A DNA stretch of 29,010 bases from a virus, in the IMG/VR virus record IMGVR_UViG_3300029986_000062, positions 1 to 29,010 of that record; one strand, written 5' to 3'. The notes below the pieces were generated by a model that did not search any database, was not told the origin of the DNA, and saw nothing but the letters and a program-made list of their open reading frames with translations. Position 1 is the first letter of the stretch. The number at the start of each line of letters is the position of its first letter. The translations under genes and the position numbers were made by a program. Positions 19,197 through 29,010 of this stretch are shown here, in pieces.

Positions 19197-22052
19197 ATGG
19201 GTTTATTTGATGATTTAGTTCCACAACAATCTAAGCAAGCTGGCCTGTTTGATGATTTAGTTCCGTCAAGTGGTGCTGTTGGTGCTAACAATCCACAATA
19301 CAATGATGCTGGTGCTGCAAGATTGGGCACTTCATACGGTCAGTCTCAGGCAAATCAACAACCTTCTGCCTGGAACAGGGCAACAGCTATGGCAAATCGG
19401 CTCTCTTCTATTGGTCTGATTGGTCTTACCGCTCCTGCTCAGGCTGTTCTTGGTGCCTATTCTCACACTGGCCTTCCTGGTGCTCAAGCTGCTGGACAGA
19501 CTGTAAATAATCTCCAGTCATACGGGAATGAGCTTATCAGTGGTGCTCCACAGGCATTAGGACTTCCATCAAATCAACAGGGTTATGATTTAGGTGGTGT
19601 TGGAGATGCTATTAAGACTGCTGGATCTATGGTTTCTGGTGCTGCTTTAGGTCAGGCTACAGGTCTTAACTCTCTAATTGGTGGTATTAACAGCTATCTG
19701 CCTCAAGCAAGTTCCTATCTTGGTCGTGCTGCTTCATCTGGCTTGGGTGGAGTTGTAGGTGGAACTGGCTATGGTGCTCTGAATGCTGCTACTACTCCAG
19801 TTGCTCCAGGTGATACATACGCAAACCACTTAGCACAGAACCTTAAGGGTGGTGCTCTGACTGGTGGTGTTGTGGGAGCAGCAATTCCAATGGTTCTTGA
19901 CGCTCCTGAAGCTATTGGAAACGGTATGGACTCAATCAAGAGTGGTGGTTTAGCTGCTAAGAAGATTGCGCTTGGAACTTCTAAGGTTTCACTACCTGGT
20001 GAGATTCTGACTGGTGAAAGTGTGAATGATGTAATGGCAAATGCCCAGAGTAATCCAGCATTTGAAGGGAAGACCATCCCCGAGATTCAGCTTATCTCAC
20101 AAGGAACTGGAGAGAATGCTTCTAATGCTAAGTCTATCATTCAACGTCTAACTGTTGCTGCTGGTAATGAAAATAGTGTTGGTCTTTCAATCGGTGATAT
20201 AAGCCAAGATCCAAAACTACAGATAAGGGAGCAAGGCTTAGAAGGTGCTCCAGGAAATGTCGTTCTAAATGCCCGGCAGACCCAAGGAAGTCAGATAAGA
20301 CAGGCAATCATGGATCAACAGAGCAAGTATGATGGTGTTGCTCAGTCTACTAAATATGATTTTGACACTCCATCCCCGTATACTCAACCAATGCCAAATC
20401 GTCCACTCAACCCTGAGATTGACGATATTGACAGTATGACTCCTACTGTGTCTGAAGCTGCTGGGGCTGGAGACAAGGGAGCACAATACCTCCAGACTGA
20501 GATGGCTAAGGCCAATACAAATCCTAAGATAATCCAGGCATCTCTTGAGGGTCAATTCTGGAAGAATAGACAGATTTCAAGTGCTGCCTATAACTCATTT
20601 AATGACTATCTGAATGGTGCTGCTGATGGTGAACTTGTTGATGTAAGCTCTACCGTCCAAGACATTAAGCAGGCAAGAGCAGATAACAGAACGTCTCCTG
20701 GGTATGATCCAGCTATCGAAGAACTGCTAAAGCGATACGAGACAAATCTAACAAATCCTTCTGCTGACATGAGCTATCCAAATGTTCAGAAGTCAATATC
20801 ACAGATGGAAGGTGAGATTGAAGATTTGAAGGCAAGTGGTAATCGGTCAGCAGCAAGAACACTATTTCAAGTAAAGAATGGTCTAAATGGTAATGTCACT
20901 AACTTTGTCCAGTCTACCCTTGCGGATGACCCTGGAGCACTCGCAACATTTGGAAAGGCAGATACTTACTATAAGCAGAATGTTCTACCTTTCCAGGATC
21001 CAGATAGCGGTATCTCAAAGATTATGAATGGTATTGATGCTGATAAGGCTGTTTCTCCACTCTTTACGGATAGTAGCCCAGACCAATTTTCGCGTATTTT
21101 CTCACAACTGGACAGTAAGGGTCAAGCTGCTGTTAGGGCTGAGATGGTAGGAAGAACTGAAGATGCTGCTACCAGAATGAAGAACTTTCAAGGTATCAAT
21201 ATACCTTCGGTAGCCAGATTTCTTGAGAATAGGTCGGATCAGGTAGCAACAGCTTTTGGCAATGATAATAGTATTTCTGCTCTATCGAATCTTATTAGAA
21301 ATATACCAAGAGCAGGATATCAGTCTAATTTGGCTAAGTCTATGAGCTTTATTCAGCCCGGCAATATCTTAAGAAGTCAAGTTGCTGGAGGTGTTGGGGC
21401 TGGTTTGGGTGGTCTGCCTGGTTATGCGATGGGTATTGCTGCGGAAACTGGTGGTGAAATTGGCTATAACAACATGATAGGAAAGGGTTTAATGGCTCCA
21501 AACTTGGGAGAATATACCAGACCTGTTCAACCTGTCTCTCCATCTGCTCCTGTCCAGACAGCTTTGCCCTTCAATGTGCCAACCCTGGCAGACAAGAGCA
21601 CTTCAGTTCCGTCAAGTGTCGATCCTGGGTTCCAGTCTCAGTATCAGCAGGCCAGACCCATGCCCTATCAGATGCCGGCACTCTCAGATAGCTCTACACT
21701 TCCCACACAACCTCCAAGAGCAATGCCATACGTCCAGAGATTAGGCATGTATCTTTCATCTTCATCAACTGGACTGGCAACACCTGGACTTGCTCAACTT
21801 CCCGAATACAAGCCTCCAGTTCCTTTAGGTGGTCCTGTAGCTCTCGCTCCACAGACTCCAGCACTTCCACCCTATCCAGAGGCAGTAGGACGGCTCAATG
21901 GTCCTGTCTATCCACCAGCACAGACTATGAAGATGATGTTGAAGGGCCGTGGCATTCAAGTCTATGAACCTAAGAGTATGTCCGAATATGCTGCTATCCC
22001 TTCTGGTAGTGTCTACAAAAGTGTTAGTGGTTCATTTGGAATTAAACAATAA
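19197..22052 (+). CDS. large DNA ejection protein, gp16-position
   Basis: A 951-residue protein. It begins with a duplicated GLFDDLVP motif (residues 2-9 and 16-23), typical of large phage internal proteins. Residues about 55-90 and 130-240 are Gly/Ala-rich and hydrophobic (IGLIGLTAPAQAVLGAYS, then GALTGGVVGAAIPMVL), suggesting membrane contact during genome entry. Residues about 260-700 are helical and charged. Another glycine-rich segment follows at about 725-760 (GGVGAGLGGLPGYAMGIA), then a Pro-rich tail. P22 gp16 is 609 residues, so this is longer. I see no transglycosylase or peptidase signature. It starts 4 bases after the previous stop. Confidence 0.78.
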   Translation: MGLFDDLVPQQSKQAGLFDDLVPSSGAVGANNPQYNDAGAARLGTSYGQSQANQQPSAWNRATAMANRLSSIGLIGLTAPAQAVLGAYSHTGLPGAQAAGQTVNNLQSYGNELISGAPQALGLPSNQQGYDLGGVGDAIKTAGSMVSGAALGQATGLNSLIGGINSYLPQASSYLGRAASSGLGGVVGGTGYGALNAATTPVAPGDTYANHLAQNLKGGALTGGVVGAAIPMVLDAPEAIGNGMDSIKSGGLAAKKIALGTSKVSLPGEILTGESVNDVMANAQSNPAFEGKTIPEIQLISQGTGENASNAKSIIQRLTVAAGNENSVGLSIGDISQDPKLQIREQGLEGAPGNVVLNARQTQGSQIRQAIMDQQSKYDGVAQSTKYDFDTPSPYTQPMPNRPLNPEIDDIDSMTPTVSEAAGAGDKGAQYLQTEMAKANTNPKIIQASLEGQFWKNRQISSAAYNSFNDYLNGAADGELVDVSSTVQDIKQARADNRTSPGYDPAIEELLKRYETNLTNPSADMSYPNVQKSISQMEGEIEDLKASGNRSAARTLFQVKNGLNGNVTNFVQSTLADDPGALATFGKADTYYKQNVLPFQDPDSGISKIMNGIDADKAVSPLFTDSSPDQFSRIFSQLDSKGQAAVRAEMVGRTEDAATRMKNFQGINIPSVARFLENRSDQVATAFGNDNSISALSNLIRNIPRAGYQSNLAKSMSFIQPGNILRSQVAGGVGAGLGGLPGYAMGIAAETGGEIGYNNMIGKGLMAPNLGEYTRPVQPVSPSAPVQTALPFNVPTLADKSTSVPSSVDPGFQSQYQQARPMPYQMPALSDSSTLPTQPPRAMPYVQRLGMYLSSSSTGLATPGLAQLPEYKPPVPLGGPVALAPQTPALPPYPEAVGRLNGPVYPPAQTMKMMLKGRGIQVYEPKSMSEYAAIPSGSVYKSVSGSFGIKQ

Positions 22053-22359: not shown

Positions 22360-22388
22360 AAATAAATGTATGTAGATTGGGACAAGAC

Positions 22389-22697
22389 ATGATTGATGTA
22401 GTAAGTTCGTTAATGATTATTGGAACTGTAGGTGGTTTCTTTACTGCCGGTTATAAGGTGTTGGATAGTAAGGTTGAACCAATAAACAAGATGCTTTTGG
22501 ATATACAACTACATCAAGCAAACATTGAAAATACATATCTAAAGAAAGATGTATACAACGCCGAAAGTAAGCAGGTAGATAGTAAGATTGTTGATATTGC
22601 TAATGAGACAAGAGAAGAGTTAAGAGAAGAAATTAAAGATACTGAAGAGAGACTAACCAAAAGAGTTGAAAAGATTGAGCAGGTAGTTTTTAAGTAG
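22389..22697 (+). CDS. small membrane-anchored coiled-coil protein
   Basis: A 102-residue protein if it starts at ATG 22389; a TTG at 22377 would add four residues. It has one N-terminal transmembrane segment (SSLMIIGTVGGFFTAGYKVL) and then an amphipathic, highly charged helix to the end (ETREELREEIKDTEERLTKR), predicted coiled coil. Similar TM-plus-coil proteins of about 100 residues are common in phage genomes near tail or lysis genes. It resembles an inner-membrane spanin in outline but lies before a terminator, away from the lysis genes at 26845-28133. Function not assigned. Confidence 0.7.
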   Translation: MIDVVSSLMIIGTVGGFFTAGYKVLDSKVEPINKMLLDIQLHQANIENTYLKKDVYNAESKQVDSKIVDIANETREELREEIKDTEERLTKRVEKIEQVVFK

Positions 22698-22722
22698 TAG
22701 TCCAATGATAGAAGATAGTAGA

Positions 22723-22755
22723 AGACCCACCAGTTACATTAGTGGGTCTAATTTT
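22723..22755 (+). terminator. rho-independent terminator ending the late operon
   Basis: AGACCCAC (22723-22730) and GTGGGTCT (22742-22749) form a perfect 8-bp stem around an 11-base loop, followed by AATTTTG. It lies 26 bases past the last structural-module gene. Confidence 0.85.
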
Positions 22756-22766
22756 GTCTGAATGGT

Positions 22767-22785
22767 GTTTCTTGGGCTCTGGATG
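22767..22785. repeat. 19-bp direct repeat, left copy
   Basis: GTTTCTTGGGCTCTGGATG is identical to 24424-24442. Both copies lie just after a terminator hairpin. The interval between them holds two accessory genes. A weaker gapped match (CTGGGCT-GGATGG-TTCA) occurs near 50-65. Confidence 0.85.
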
Positions 22786-22788
22786 GGT

Positions 22789-22840
22789 TCAGGAGATGCT
22801 GGATGAGGCTGGAGGTGTCACTGTCTCTCTGTGCTCCTGA
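22789..22840 (+). other. GC-rich leader of the accessory cassette, with long-loop inverted repeat
   Basis: TCAGGAG (22789-22795) and CTCCTGA (22834-22840) are a perfect 7-bp inverted repeat enclosing a purine-rich 38-base loop. The rest of 22841-22954 has no gene and no convincing sigma70 promoter. The hairpin may belong to the 5' leader or to the junction of the inserted cassette. Confidence 0.35.
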
Positions 22841-22954
22841 GATGCCGTCTCAAAAGGGCACTCTGCCAGGTATCCAACTCCCAAGCGAATAGTTCATATC
22901 GACCCAGGAAGGATTAGGGAATATCCTGAGAAGCATAAAAGCACTGGAGAAGAT

Positions 22955-23566
22955 ATGAGGTTCCCAACGTTCGTTGTCGTGTCCGGCGTCCTTGTGATGC
23001 TGACCCTTGGTTGTGATATGTTCAAGAGTAACGAGACTCTTATCACAGAAAAGGCATGGGCTGAGTTCCGAGAAAAGCTCAAAAGCCCATCAACGGCAAA
23101 ATTAGTATCCGGTCAAGTATATGAGTCAAAAGATAAAGCCGATAACCTGAAAACTTATATAAAGTCTAATTTTCTTATAGAGTCATTGGCGAGAAACATT
23201 GATCTTTTGAAGATTGCCAACAGATCACCAACCATCAATGATAAAAACATTGATAAAGTTAAAAACGATATTATTATTGAAACAAAACAATTTGATGATA
23301 AACATCTGTGTGCTGGCTTAGGTGAAGAACTGTTTAACAAAAAGACATGTAAGGAAGTATCTAAGGTATTGGTGGCAGATTTGAATAGTGTAACCAAACA
23401 AGAAACTGATAATTTAGCTAAAAATGCTACGCTCAAGTTCTACACTGTATGTATTGATTACGATGCCCAAAATAGTTATGGTGCGGTCTTACGTGGGGAG
23501 ACTTTTGGTAAGGTAATAGAGACTGATTCTGGATACATTAGAATTGTAGATTTTATTGGTCAATAG
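22955..23566 (+). CDS. predicted lipoprotein, accessory (moron-like)
   Basis: A 203-residue protein with a signal peptide (VVVSGVLVMLTLGC) ending in a lipobox-like LTLGC, with Cys20 as the lipidated residue. Residues about 32-55 contain EFREKLKSPSTAKLVSGQVY, similar in style to small lipoproteins with a KDPSSAKF-type motif. Two further cysteines (about 117 and 130) could form a disulfide. The C-terminus (VCIDYDAQNSYGAVLRGE, then GYIRIVDF) looks like a compact beta domain. GGAG five bases before the ATG supports the start. An outer-membrane or periplasmic role such as superinfection exclusion or envelope modification is an inference from location and lipidation. Confidence 0.75.
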   Translation: MRFPTFVVVSGVLVMLTLGCDMFKSNETLITEKAWAEFREKLKSPSTAKLVSGQVYESKDKADNLKTYIKSNFLIESLARNIDLLKIANRSPTINDKNIDKVKNDIIIETKQFDDKHLCAGLGEELFNKKTCKEVSKVLVADLNSVTKQETDNLAKNATLKFYTVCIDYDAQNSYGAVLRGETFGKVIETDSGYIRIVDFIGQ

Positions 23567-23598
23567 CTTTAGTCCGTATCAGGGATAAGGGAAGATGG

Positions 23599-24354
23599 AT
23601 GATGTTGCTTGAGGATACTCCAAACTTCTGGTCTTCGTTTTGGACTGCCATAGGTGCCTTGGGTTCTATCGCTGCGGCGGGTGGTGCTTGCTATGCTGCG
23701 TTCCAGGCCAGGGCCACAGTTGGAGAGATGAAGAGTGAAAGGCTGGAACGGAGAAGACTTGAGGAGCCGGAACTGTCAATAGACGGTGCTTCTATTTTAA
23801 CTCCAGACAGCATTGATACTCCAATTTTTGTTTATCATATTAACATCAACAATATAAAAGAGAGTAAGATATTGGATATGAAATATGTAATAGCATTATT
23901 CTATAAAAACGATAATGGTGATAATACTTTAGGCGTTTCTTTAGTGGTTTGCGAAAGGTGCTATGGATCTTGTCCAAGAACGCTACATGGTAGTTGCACT
24001 ATATTTAATGCAAAGTTTTCAGAAAGAACTATTAGCAAATCAATAGGTTTTTTTGTTGTCAAAGATATATATTTGAATGAAAAAAGGATTATTGGTCAAT
24101 TGAACCATATGGGTGAGTGGGATGACGTTTTTGAGAGTAGATTTGCGCATTCAAGACCAGTTGAGTTGGTCGCAATGGCTGACGGCGGTAGAAAAGACTC
24201 TACCGCCGGTATCACCGTATTGGAAGATAATGTTAAAGAAGAGATTATGAGTTCCATTGTGAGTAAAATTAAAGATAAAGAGACATTGGCTTTTGTTAAT
24301 TCATTTGTGAAGATAAATAAAGAGTCACCATGGTTTATAAAAATCTTTCGGTAG
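23599..24354 (+). CDS. membrane-anchored accessory protein with C-terminal cytosolic domain
   Basis: A 251-residue protein of unknown function. Residues about 10-34 form one transmembrane helix (WTAIGALGSIAAAGGACYAA). A positively charged helix follows (EMKSERLERRRLEE), which should place the rest in the cytoplasm. From PELSID (about residue 57) a beta-rich domain begins that resembles the corresponding part of the protein at 28264-29010. By count, 23641-23760 is 57.5 per cent GC and 23821-23940 only 24 per cent, so the anchor and domain have different origins or constraints. AAGGGAAG lies upstream. It follows the lipoprotein gene by 32 bases and probably shares its transcript. Confidence 0.75.
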   Translation: MMLLEDTPNFWSSFWTAIGALGSIAAAGGACYAAFQARATVGEMKSERLERRRLEEPELSIDGASILTPDSIDTPIFVYHININNIKESKILDMKYVIALFYKNDNGDNTLGVSLVVCERCYGSCPRTLHGSCTIFNAKFSERTISKSIGFFVVKDIYLNEKRIIGQLNHMGEWDDVFESRFAHSRPVELVAMADGGRKDSTAGITVLEDNVKEEIMSSIVSKIKDKETLAFVNSFVKINKESPWFIKIFR

Positions 24355-24400
24355 TTGAATTAACAATTTGTAACATTCATAGTGCTGTAGACAAGGAAAA

Positions 24401-24422
24401 GCCCTTCGATTACTCAAAGGGC
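24401..24422. terminator. bidirectional terminator between the accessory cassette and the leftward cluster
   Basis: On the minus strand GCCCTTTGA-gtaa-TCGAAGGGC forms a 9-bp stem (one G-T wobble) with a tetraloop, followed by TTTTCC. On the plus strand the same stem has one mismatch and is followed by CGTTTCTT. It can stop rightward transcription from the cassette and leftward transcription from the 24529-25071 genes. Confidence 0.75.
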
Positions 24423-24423
24423 C

Positions 24424-24442
24424 GTTTCTTGGGCTCTGGATG
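24424..24442. repeat. 19-bp direct repeat, right copy
   Basis: Identical to 22767-22785 and placed directly after the terminator hairpin at 24401-24422. Confidence 0.85.
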
Positions 24443-24528
24443 AGCCTACAAGCTGTCAAATGGTCCTTATCGACTATTGGCCCATTCCATCTTTTTGCTT
24501 TAACCTTGAAGGCCGTTATAGCGTTTCG

Positions 24529-24690
24529 TTAAATATCCTCTGGGTAGATACGTTCAAAGAGTAGTGCTTGCCTAATCTCTTCCTTCTCTCGCTCAAGTTC
24601 TTTGATTTGCTGGAGTGCTACCGCTAATGCCTCTTCAACCTTATGATTTCTACACTTGAGAGATGCGAGTATTAACTTTCTGTCTACCAT
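24529..24690 (-). CDS. 53-residue coiled-coil protein beside the HNH gene
   Basis: Reading the minus strand from ATG (24688-24690) gives 53 codons and TAA at 24529-24531. It starts immediately after the stop of the HNH gene, so translation is probably coupled. The product begins MVDRKLILASLKCRNHKVEE and continues as a charged helix (QQIKELEREKEEIRQALLFE) predicted to be coiled coil. No family is recognised. It might be a DNA-binding or endonuclease-associated partner, but this is only inferred from the tight linkage. Confidence 0.6.
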   Translation of the reverse strand: MVDRKLILASLKCRNHKVEEALAVALQQIKELEREKEEIRQALLFERIYPEDI

Positions 24691-25071
24691 TTATGCCACC
24701 TTCTTTCTTGAATACTTTGGAACGTAATTTTTACCATATCTGTTATATTGTATATTTTTCTTAAAAGATATCAATTCAAGATTTTCAAATCTATTGTCTA
24801 ACTTGTTCTCGTTGATGTGGTTCAGACACATTCTTGTTCCATCGGTATCAAACTTGTCATAACTTCCATTGAAGGTAAGCCAAACAATCTGATGAAGTGG
24901 CAGACTCTTCTGAACCTTATTTCCAAGATAAAAGCAGATGTAGAGATACCCATTCGGTGCCAGGGTCTTGGTCATCTTGTGAGGTTCTGAAGCCTTGAAC
25001 GAGTAGACTTCATAAGTTTTTGTATCAAAGTAGTAGTTTGTTAAAGTAGGAATCTGAATTAGACGTTCCAT
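24691..25071 (-). CDS. HNH endonuclease, homing-type
   Basis: A 126-residue protein with the HNH_3 pattern: LPLHQIVWLTF gives His60, LNHINENKLDNR gives Asn84-His85 and Asn93, and FENLELISFKKN closes the motif. This is the compact ββα-metal nuclease used by free-standing homing endonucleases in phages. The N-terminal 55 residues are an unusual beta-rich extension (YYFDTKTYEVYSF, then GYLYICFYLGN); no NUMOD DNA-binding repeat is visible. AAGGAG seven bases before the ATG is a strong ribosome-binding site. It is transcribed against the late genes. A packaging-linked HNH is less likely because it is far from the terminase. Confidence 0.85.
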   Translation of the reverse strand: MERLIQIPTLTNYYFDTKTYEVYSFKASEPHKMTKTLAPNGYLYICFYLGNKVQKSLPLHQIVWLTFNGSYDKFDTDGTRMCLNHINENKLDNRFENLELISFKKNIQYNRYGKNYVPKYSRKKVA

Positions 25072-26058: not shown

Positions 26059-26211
26059 TTACTTGCTAAGATACGCTTCAATCGCTCTTACGATAGCTCT
26101 TGCCAGTGGCTCATTGTTTTCCGTTGCTATTACTTGCAAAGCATCCCGCTGTTTTTGTGTGATGGTAGTTTTTACTTCAACGTTCGGCACTAATAGTTTT
26201 GGTCTGCTCAT
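26059..26211 (-). CDS. 50-residue ribbon-helix-helix (Arc/CopG-like) DNA-binding protein
   Basis: Minus-strand ATG at 26209-26211, TAA at 26059-26061. The product starts MSRPKLLVPNVEVKTTITQK and ends RAIEAYLSK. The pattern is one beta strand (VEVKTTIT), helix A (QKQRDALQVIATEN), a turn (NEP) and helix B (LARAIVRAIEAYL), as in Arc, CopG and related phage repressors that bind operators as dimers. AAGGA lies about nine bases upstream of the ATG. It is the first gene of a leftward pair with the winged-helix gene, 11 bases ahead of it. The palindromes at 26230-26439 are candidate targets, so autoregulation is likely but inferred. Confidence 0.8.
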   Translation of the reverse strand: MSRPKLLVPNVEVKTTITQKQRDALQVIATENNEPLARAIVRAIEAYLSK

Positions 26212-26291: not shown

Positions 26292-26327
26292 GAAAATATA
26301 TTTTCGTGTATCCATAGGTATGGATAC
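26292..26327. promoter_or_regulatory. operator-like palindromes
   Basis: GAAAATATATTTTC (26292-26305) is a perfect 14-bp palindrome. GTATCCATAGGTATGGATAC (26308-26327) is an inverted repeat with 9-bp arms and a GG centre. They lie upstream of the leftward promoter. Confidence 0.65.
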
Positions 26328-26404
26328 AGGCTAATTATCCGCTCTGTATTGGAGTTAGCGCGATTGAATCTGTATAAATCAAGTAGTTCCAACAAAATTA
26401 GCGT

Positions 26405-26439
26405 GTATCCATACCTATGGATATACCTGTATCCATACC
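26405..26439. promoter_or_regulatory. second GTATCCATA operator plus a half-site
   Basis: GTATCCATACCTATGGATAT (26405-26424) repeats the site at 26308-26327 with a CC centre and one end change. It is followed by a half-site GTATCCATACC (26429-26439). Centres of the two full sites are 97 bp apart, which would allow a looped repressor complex. Confidence 0.65.
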
Positions 26440-26461
26440 ATAAAGATGGAAAGTGCTGGCA

Positions 26462-27086: not shown

Positions 27087-27716
27087 ATGACAATCAAGAC
27101 TAAGTTAATAATAATCTCCAGCGTTATTCTGATAGTAGCTATTTCTATCTTATCATTCCATATCTATGATAGGCACAAGGCAAACCTTAAGCTAACTCAA
27201 GATAGCGCCATTGTAGCTCTTGCTTCTACTATCATAACCGATAAGCAAGCAACAGTGACCCTACAGACAAAGTTGAGCACAGACCTGGCACCGATCCACC
27301 ATCTCCAGCCCATCGCTCATGCTGCCAAGACTGAGGCCATAGCAAACGTGCTCCAGCTTGAGACAGACCATCCGGCAGAGAAGGCAGACATAGACCTGGT
27401 TGCCCAACCTCTTGAGCAGGCAATCACTGACCAAGAGCAGGTCACAGAGGCCACACAGACAGCCCTGGATGATGCCCAGTCCGTTGATGCCTCCCAGGAT
27501 AAGACTATTGACGACCAGACAGCCCTGGATGATGCCCAGTCCGTTGATGCCTCCCAGGATAAGACTATTGACGACCAGACAGCCCAACTCCAGAACTACC
27601 AGGCTGACATAGCAACTACTGAGCAACAGGTCAAGACTGAGACGACAAGAAAGGTTTGGTATCGTAGGTGTTTCTTTGTTGTTGCTTCAATTATTCTAAT
27701 TCATATCGCACTATAA
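27087..27716 (+). CDS. two-transmembrane coiled protein with duplicated 20-residue unit
   Basis: A 209-residue protein with transmembrane segments at both ends: about residues 6-24 (KLIIISSVILIVAIS) and 195-209 (CFFVVASIILIHIAL). Between them lies a hydrophilic Gln/Asp/Thr-rich helical region. Residues 124-143 and 144-163 are identical copies of QTALDDAQSVDASQDKTIDD, from a perfect 60-bp tandem duplication. Lying between the holin-like gene and the cell-wall enzyme gene, it sits where a spanin could be found. However, a C-terminal transmembrane end with no lipobox is unlike the standard i-spanin or u-spanin. It may be an atypical spanin or an unrelated envelope protein. Confidence 0.65.
   Translation: MTIKTKLIIISSVILIVAISILSFHIYDRHKANLKLTQDSAIVALASTIITDKQATVTLQTKLSTDLAPIHHLQPIAHAAKTEAIANVLQLETDHPAEKADIDLVAQPLEQAITDQEQVTEATQTALDDAQSVDASQDKTIDDQTALDDAQSVDASQDKTIDDQTAQLQNYQADIATTEQQVKTETTRKVWYRRCFFVVASIILIHIAL
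27456..27585. repeat. perfect 60-bp tandem duplication inside the two-TM gene
   Basis: Bases 27456-27515 and 27516-27575 are identical, and 27576-27585 begins a third partial copy. The unit is 60 bp, so the frame is kept and 20 residues are duplicated. Perfect identity suggests a recent event or a slippage- and recombination-prone repeat. Confidence 0.95.
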
Positions 27717-28133: not shown

Positions 28134-28276
28134 TGCATTTCACTATCTTAACTCCACCAATTTCTGTGAACAAGTTATACATCTCTCAGGGCCGATTTAG
28201 AAAGCTGTCTCCAGATACCCGAGCCTTTAAGCTGAATGCTGGGACTGAAATGCTCGAACAGCTTCAACACCTATAG
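28133..28276 (+). pseudogene. truncated RusA-like resolvase, N-terminal fragment
   Basis: ATG overlaps the preceding stop (TAATG at 28131-28135) and opens 47 codons to TAG at 28274-28276. The product starts MHFTILTPPISVNKLYISQG and continues RFRKLSPDTRAFK. The pattern TxPPxSxNxxY, GR, LSPxxxAFK matches the N-terminus of RusA-family Holliday junction resolvases, which are about 120 residues. The catalytic aspartates and most of the fold are missing. The last bases overlap the 3' end of the opposing gene at 28264. It is most likely a remnant cut by insertion of that gene, although a small functional protein cannot be excluded. Confidence 0.6.
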
Positions 28277-29010
28277 GTCTGGTTTTCTATATCATTTGAG
28301 ACTAAAGATTTTAAGAAACGTATGAACCTATTTTGATAAATCCGTTTCAAAAAGCGTTTACTGGATGGGGTATTCAGCGATTCTTTGAGAATGCTATCAA
28401 TTCCAGAACTATGGTTCTTCTTTAATAGTGCTCGAATATGTTTTATTAGAGAAGTTGGTATCTGTGGATGGATGTTAGCGTATCCTATTAAATTATCTTC
28501 GATCGTTAATCCGTGTTGATTCACTTCTGAACGTGGTAAACTATCAAAATCCCATTCAAGTTCTTTATCGGTTGGAACATAATTACGACTAATGAATCTT
28601 GTCGTATATGAATTAAAACCTATATTTCCGAATACATCTGTTGTTTTGGTGATCAGCACAATCTTTGTTCTATTCTCAAAGAATCGTAAGATTGGGCATC
28701 CCAATACAATATCTTCTGCTTCATTTCCGTGTCTAAAGGAAAAGTCATAGAAACAAATGTTTGTATCGGGAACATCTGGGTATATTAAAAAGGTAATCCA
28801 CTCTATCATGTGGAGCTTGTTTTGTTTCGTATTCTTGATATCAAATAAAATACTTGATGTATTGTGTATGTCTCCAGCTACAAGAAGGCTTATTTCTGTA
28901 AGCTGCAAATCTGGTTTTGACCTTGCAAGTTCATCTTGTCTTGTCTTGTTAGCGTTATGAATACTCACGAATGATGCAATAGCAGAAGCACAGGCTCCAA
29001 TGCCAGCGAT
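28264..29010 (-). CDS. membrane-anchored accessory protein, 5' end outside the window
   Basis: The frame stays open from the stop at 28264 to the window edge. A GTG at 28966-28968 could start it, but the residues before it (IAGIGACASAIASF) form a transmembrane helix continuous with the frame, so the true start is probably beyond 29010. After the helix comes NANKTRQDELARSKPDLQL, then a beta-rich domain. The anchor, the charged stretch, the P-D/E-L turn and a later NxxxNK segment parallel the protein at 23599, so both seem to belong to one family. The gene is AT-rich, on the opposite strand to the lysis-like genes, and overlaps the RusA fragment. Function unknown. Confidence 0.75.
   Translation of the reverse strand: MAGIGACASAIASFVSIHNANKTRQDELARSKPDLQLTEISLLVAGDIHNTSSILFDIKNTKQNKLHMIEWITFLIYPDVPDTNICFYDFSFRHGNEAEDIVLGCPILRFFENRTKIVLITKTTDVFGNIGFNSYTTRFISRNYVPTDKELEWDFDSLPRSEVNQHGLTIEDNLIGYANIHPQIPTSLIKHIRALLKKNHSSGIDSILKESLNTPSSKRFLKRIYQNRFIRFLKSLVSNDIENQTYRC

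Follow-up and report, generated by a model that had tools for sequence, protein, structure and literature searches.

A possible moron-like accessory operon between 19-bp direct repeats in a P22-like podovirus

The sequence analysed here (the window) is a 29,010-base IMG/VR fragment of a P22-like podovirus, in which two genes of the + strand lie between two exact copies of a 19-bp direct repeat, GTTTCTTGGGCTCTGGATG, at 22767-22785 and 24424-24442 on the + strand. The arrangement is one of repeat, two-gene operon, terminator and repeat, set in the gap where a rightward block of genes meets a leftward block. It is tentatively interpreted as a moron-like accessory operon that lies where the late gene block ends and was gained by recombination, and is best read as a well-formed single example of familiar phage mosaicism, that is, an ordinary moron-like cassette.

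The repeat had been reported by a first-pass annotation of the same sequence, and both copies proved to be exact and to lie where it had placed them. If two local tandem arrays (71-742 and 27456-27575) are excepted, no other exact direct repeat in the window is as long, and no third copy with up to 3 mismatches is found anywhere in the window, where shuffled sequences lead to an expectation of 0.03. There is no similarity outside the 19 bp on either side of the two copies, the homology ends sharply, and the idea of extended homology around the repeats was thus rejected. Bearing on whether the pair might be an artefact of assembly, a 19-bp repeat is shorter than the usual assembly k-mers. The 19-mer is absent from all other IMG/VR viral contigs, including those related contigs by which the sequence is extended some 2 kb upstream of the window, and within the GTDB genomes a single match was found, in a Parcubacteria genome and apparently in-frame within coding sequence (VSWALD), which fits chance because roughly two hits are expected in 257 Gb. 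A widespread element was therefore rejected, and the suggestion that the repeat might be found at the edges of cassettes in other phages was not borne out, as it occurs at no other edge.

Each copy of the repeat is preceded by a terminator-like hairpin. The left hairpin (AGACCCAC...GTGGGTCT, 22723-22750, + strand) folds at -12.7 kcal/mol alone, is followed by the tail ATTTTGTC, and is separated from copy 1 by a gap of 16 nt. The right hairpin (AGCCCTT...AAAGGGCC, 24400-24423), which provides the two genes with a terminator of their own, has T-rich tails on both strands and is bidirectional in appearance; it abuts copy 2, with GTTTCTT, the opening 7 nt of the repeat, forming the T-rich tail of the terminator in the + direction. 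The earlier view that each copy lies directly after a terminator thus holds for copy 2 and is approximate for copy 1. Folding identifies both hairpins, whilst a simple terminator scan, the hits of which are overall at chance level, missed the left one and reported the right one on the - strand. Both edge hairpins can act in both directions.

Readings of the repeat pair other than the gain of an accessory block were also weighed. Of 300 sequences simulated for the window under a third-order Markov model, 1% contain a repeat of at least 19 nt, which agrees with the earlier claim that a 19-mer repeated by chance is unlikely, and the probability becomes far less once it is considered that both copies are intergenic and bracket one two-gene + strand operon, with the noncoding share of the window past base 900 being 6.6%. 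For these reasons chance is a poor explanation, and that the pair is a meaningless product of chance or drift, with the two genes being stable members of the genome, appears decidedly improbable, even allowing for the simulated windows that do contain such a repeat and for the fact that exact repeats of 18-31 nt also occur in isolation, with hundreds of bases between the copies, in some related phages. The repeat might also be what a mobile or homing event left behind, either a duplication on insertion or the repair of a double-strand break after cutting by the HNH endonuclease that is encoded on the - strand at 24691-25071. In phages, HNH genes promote the exchange of the DNA around them, and this one lies beside the right boundary, about 250 bp from copy 2. 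However, it is located outside the repeats, no transposase was found and the edges lack long inverted repeats, and this origin is considered improbable. A transposon or integron cassette was rejected, with no recombinase match in the two genes and no long inverted repeat pairing the edges.

The main rival, against which the HNH reading is the weaker, is that the 19-mer is a regulatory element placed after two terminators, for example one that contributes the 5' arm to an RNA hairpin by which termination is reinforced or the newly made end of the transcript is shielded, in which case it would be conserved for this job and would not be a scar of recombination. Both copies can indeed pair, as the 5' arm, with different 3' arms around a shared loop, TGGAT, as a 16-bp hairpin at 22764-22800 (+ strand) for copy 1 and as GGGCTC-TGGAT-GAGCCT, with approximate limits of 24430-24448 (+ strand), for part of copy 2. 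When the repeat is kept fixed and random stretches are placed downstream, these fold equally well in just 0.4% of trials for copy 1 and 3.6% for copy 2; the hairpin is suggestive, mainly at copy 1, and the first bases of copy 2 double as a terminator tail. Yet more than two copies would be expected of such an element, and neither the 29-kb window nor those related contigs which continue upstream of it contain a further one, the identity stops abruptly with unrelated 3' arms, and Rfam gives no match. Regulation is thus regarded as a somewhat unlikely explanation of the pair. It has also been considered that the 19-mer serves this podovirus group as a site dedicated to exchange, a half-hairpin after terminators that allows different accessory operons to be swapped at one place, with the two proteins forming a two-part entry-exclusion system, which seems very improbable.

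The gain of an accessory block by recombination is the most economical reading, as it would start from a coherent empty site. Judging from the layout and the hairpins, the removal of one repeat-to-repeat unit would leave an ordinary convergent terminator region, which is coherent since either hairpin can function in either direction. This empty site would have comprised the gene at 22377-22697, a terminator, one repeat and the leftward genes. The first of these, on the + strand, encodes a 106 aa protein with an N-terminal hydrophobic segment and a coiled coil, and closes the late operon; the leftward genes include a small ORF of 53 aa (24529-24690, - strand) that is convergent to the cassette. 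A block of repeat, two genes and terminator may have entered by recombination, which would have left a repeat on both sides, and recombination between the repeats could excise the block with one repeat remaining. The two genes have no recombinase match, and no transposon ends were found at the edges. Gain and loss in this way is plausible, with no close relative in the searched data spanning the site.

The portal protein of the phage has 33-38% identity to the P22-like portals of GenBank phages, and an identical portal is found in four IMG/VR contigs (L003/L005, L006, L007 and L008) that are effectively the same virus, which is present in the IMG samples 3300029914, 3300029908, 3300029913 and 3300028268. 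These contigs align with the window at 100%, apart from one 17-bp deletion in L007, and the furthest of them reaches window position 20728; a further contig, L009, is 6 kb long and has a portal of 58% identity. All 5 of the related contigs with at least 58% portal identity stop before the cassette. The deletion in L007, at window position 1462, is all that distinguishes this contig from the window along 8.7 kb, and both removes and frameshifts the P-loop region of the large terminase gene; it is either an assembly error or a defective variant.

Probing IMG/VR with the left and right flanking genes and with either cassette gene recovered no second copy. No genuine copy of the cassette genes was found in 9 P22-like phage records and 4 distant IMG/VR relatives that were searched whole, and a candidate relative of the lipoprotein in L004 was rejected as a short coincidental match to an unrelated gene of an unrelated contig. 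In the distant relatives (28-39%) the adjacent 951-aa gene is undetected as well as the cassette genes, and absence of the cassette from them is therefore weak evidence. The comparison of empty sites with distant P22-like phages was dropped, these being too diverged. In the related phage DSL-LC05 (L016, 2842-3580) there are direct repeats of 22-33 bp between small early genes, possibly a parallel case of repeats at the edges of accessory genes.

The operon opens with a leader (22786-22954, + strand) with a GC content of about 0.49. No Rfam match was found in it and it folds no better than shuffled sequences, and a riboswitch or other known RNA was rejected. Nor was a sigma-70-like promoter above background found in 22698-22954 by a scan for which the hits are overall at chance level and the consensus may not be that of the host. 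A good ribosome site, CTGGAGAAGAT-ATG, precedes the first gene (22955-23566, + strand), which on translation gives a protein of 203 aa that carries a signal peptide and has, in its lipobox, Cys20 next to an Asp at +2. The second gene (23599-24354, + strand) begins 32 nt further on and encodes a predicted membrane protein of 251 aa, which on hydrophobicity and charge has one transmembrane span near residues 17-35, with negative charges before the span and positive charges only on its C-terminal side; beyond it a charged helix and then strands are predicted at low confidence. The earlier proposal that a lipoprotein and a membrane protein lie between the repeats is supported by a lipobox that fits the PROSITE rule and by the one hydrophobic span of the second protein.

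For neither of the two proteins did Pfam or NCBIfam give a significant family match, PADLOC a match to any defence model up to E = 1, or the phage and plasmid collections a relative, whilst the C-terminal half of the lipoprotein has a weak match (7e-6) to phrog_2320, the function of which is unknown. Single-sequence structure models, with mean pLDDT of 32 and 38, are too poor for a fold search. In enterobacterial lipoproteins Asp at position +2 leads to retention in the inner membrane, and by this rule the cassette lipoprotein may be retained there in the host of this phage. Both proteins might conceivably act at the host inner membrane, for example by hindering the entry of DNA from other phages. 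Neither protein has a family match that backs superinfection exclusion, which is a guess, or modification of the envelope, but the predicted membrane topology does not contradict such a role. Should the repeat mark the edges of a gained block, it could serve in uncultivated P22-like phages as a simple means of locating accessory genes that are interchangeable, and the two membrane proteins would be candidates for phage exclusion, the case being so far one example without a comparator.

The first-pass annotation had suggested that the cassette is a discrete moron, and whilst its anatomy and its position between rightward and leftward blocks agree with this, its overall base composition does not. 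The definition of a moron applied here is that quoted in PMC1524935, under which base composition should be distinct from that of the neighbours; both cassette genes have an overall GC of 0.37-0.38 and a GC3 of 0.35, inside the range of the other genes of the contig. Within the two genes GC3 falls from the N-terminal anchor to the body, from 0.61 to 0.28 and from 0.54 to 0.29 respectively, with the N-terminal parts at 22955-23119 and 23599-23802 near 0.5 and the bodies near 0.3. Breaks in GC3 are also seen elsewhere among the genes of the window, and those in the cassette are thus no more than a hint that anchors and bodies have different origins or a mosaic history.

The product of a leftward gene cut by the end of the contig (28264-29010) has a layout like that of the cassette membrane protein, with one transmembrane span, a charged helix, P-x-L and strands. 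Paralogy of the membrane protein with 28264-28968 was rejected, there being no BLAST support and a single-sequence hhalign match that is weak (E 0.006, probability 6%).

Further repeats occur elsewhere in the window. About 650 bp of noncoding sequence before the small terminase gene (71-742) contain two repeat families, with units of about 105 bp at 71-463 and spaced units of 40-100 bp at 502-742, and two units of this array contain TGGCACGATACTTG, which is near the sigma-54 promoter consensus; the array is also present in L006 and L007. A perfect 60-bp tandem duplication (27456-27575) is found within a gene for a membrane-anchored coiled-coil protein that is weakly spanin-like (27087-27716). 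In a gap of 633 bp there are inverted repeats (26306-26440) around the palindrome ATCCATAGGTATGGAT, beside a small gene (26059-26211) with a likeness, by eye, to CopG-type regulators, and it is possible that these inverted repeats are the operators of a phage switch.

Of the known systems, the morons of lambdoid phages are like the cassette in being short blocks of one or two ORFs that lie between the operons of a phage and have a terminator to themselves, with no homologue found in related phages, the products here being uncharacterised and membrane-associated. The cassette differs from them in that no promoter of its own was found and its overall GC is not clearly unlike that of its neighbours, and direct repeats at the edges are no part of the definition in PMC1524935. 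In T4-like phages the PeSLs, stem-loops between genes that contain an early promoter and are densely distributed, have been proposed to mediate the shuffling of accessory genes (Arbiol 2010 and Comeau 2014, to the extent that they are cited in PMC4503421 and PMC5931544). The cassette resembles these, as there described, in its intergenic stem-loop elements; it differs in having just two copies, no promoter that could be found, and a shared 19 bp that does not include the terminator stem, and a T4-type PeSL cassette was rejected on the number of copies and the promoter. SieA is an inner-membrane protein. It serves P22 in superinfection exclusion (PMC10883804) and offers a comparison for the setting of the cassette, as exclusion is in that case the work of a protein from a phage whose portal is of the P22 type; the likeness seen is one of phage type, no sequence relation to SieA having been found for the cassette genes.
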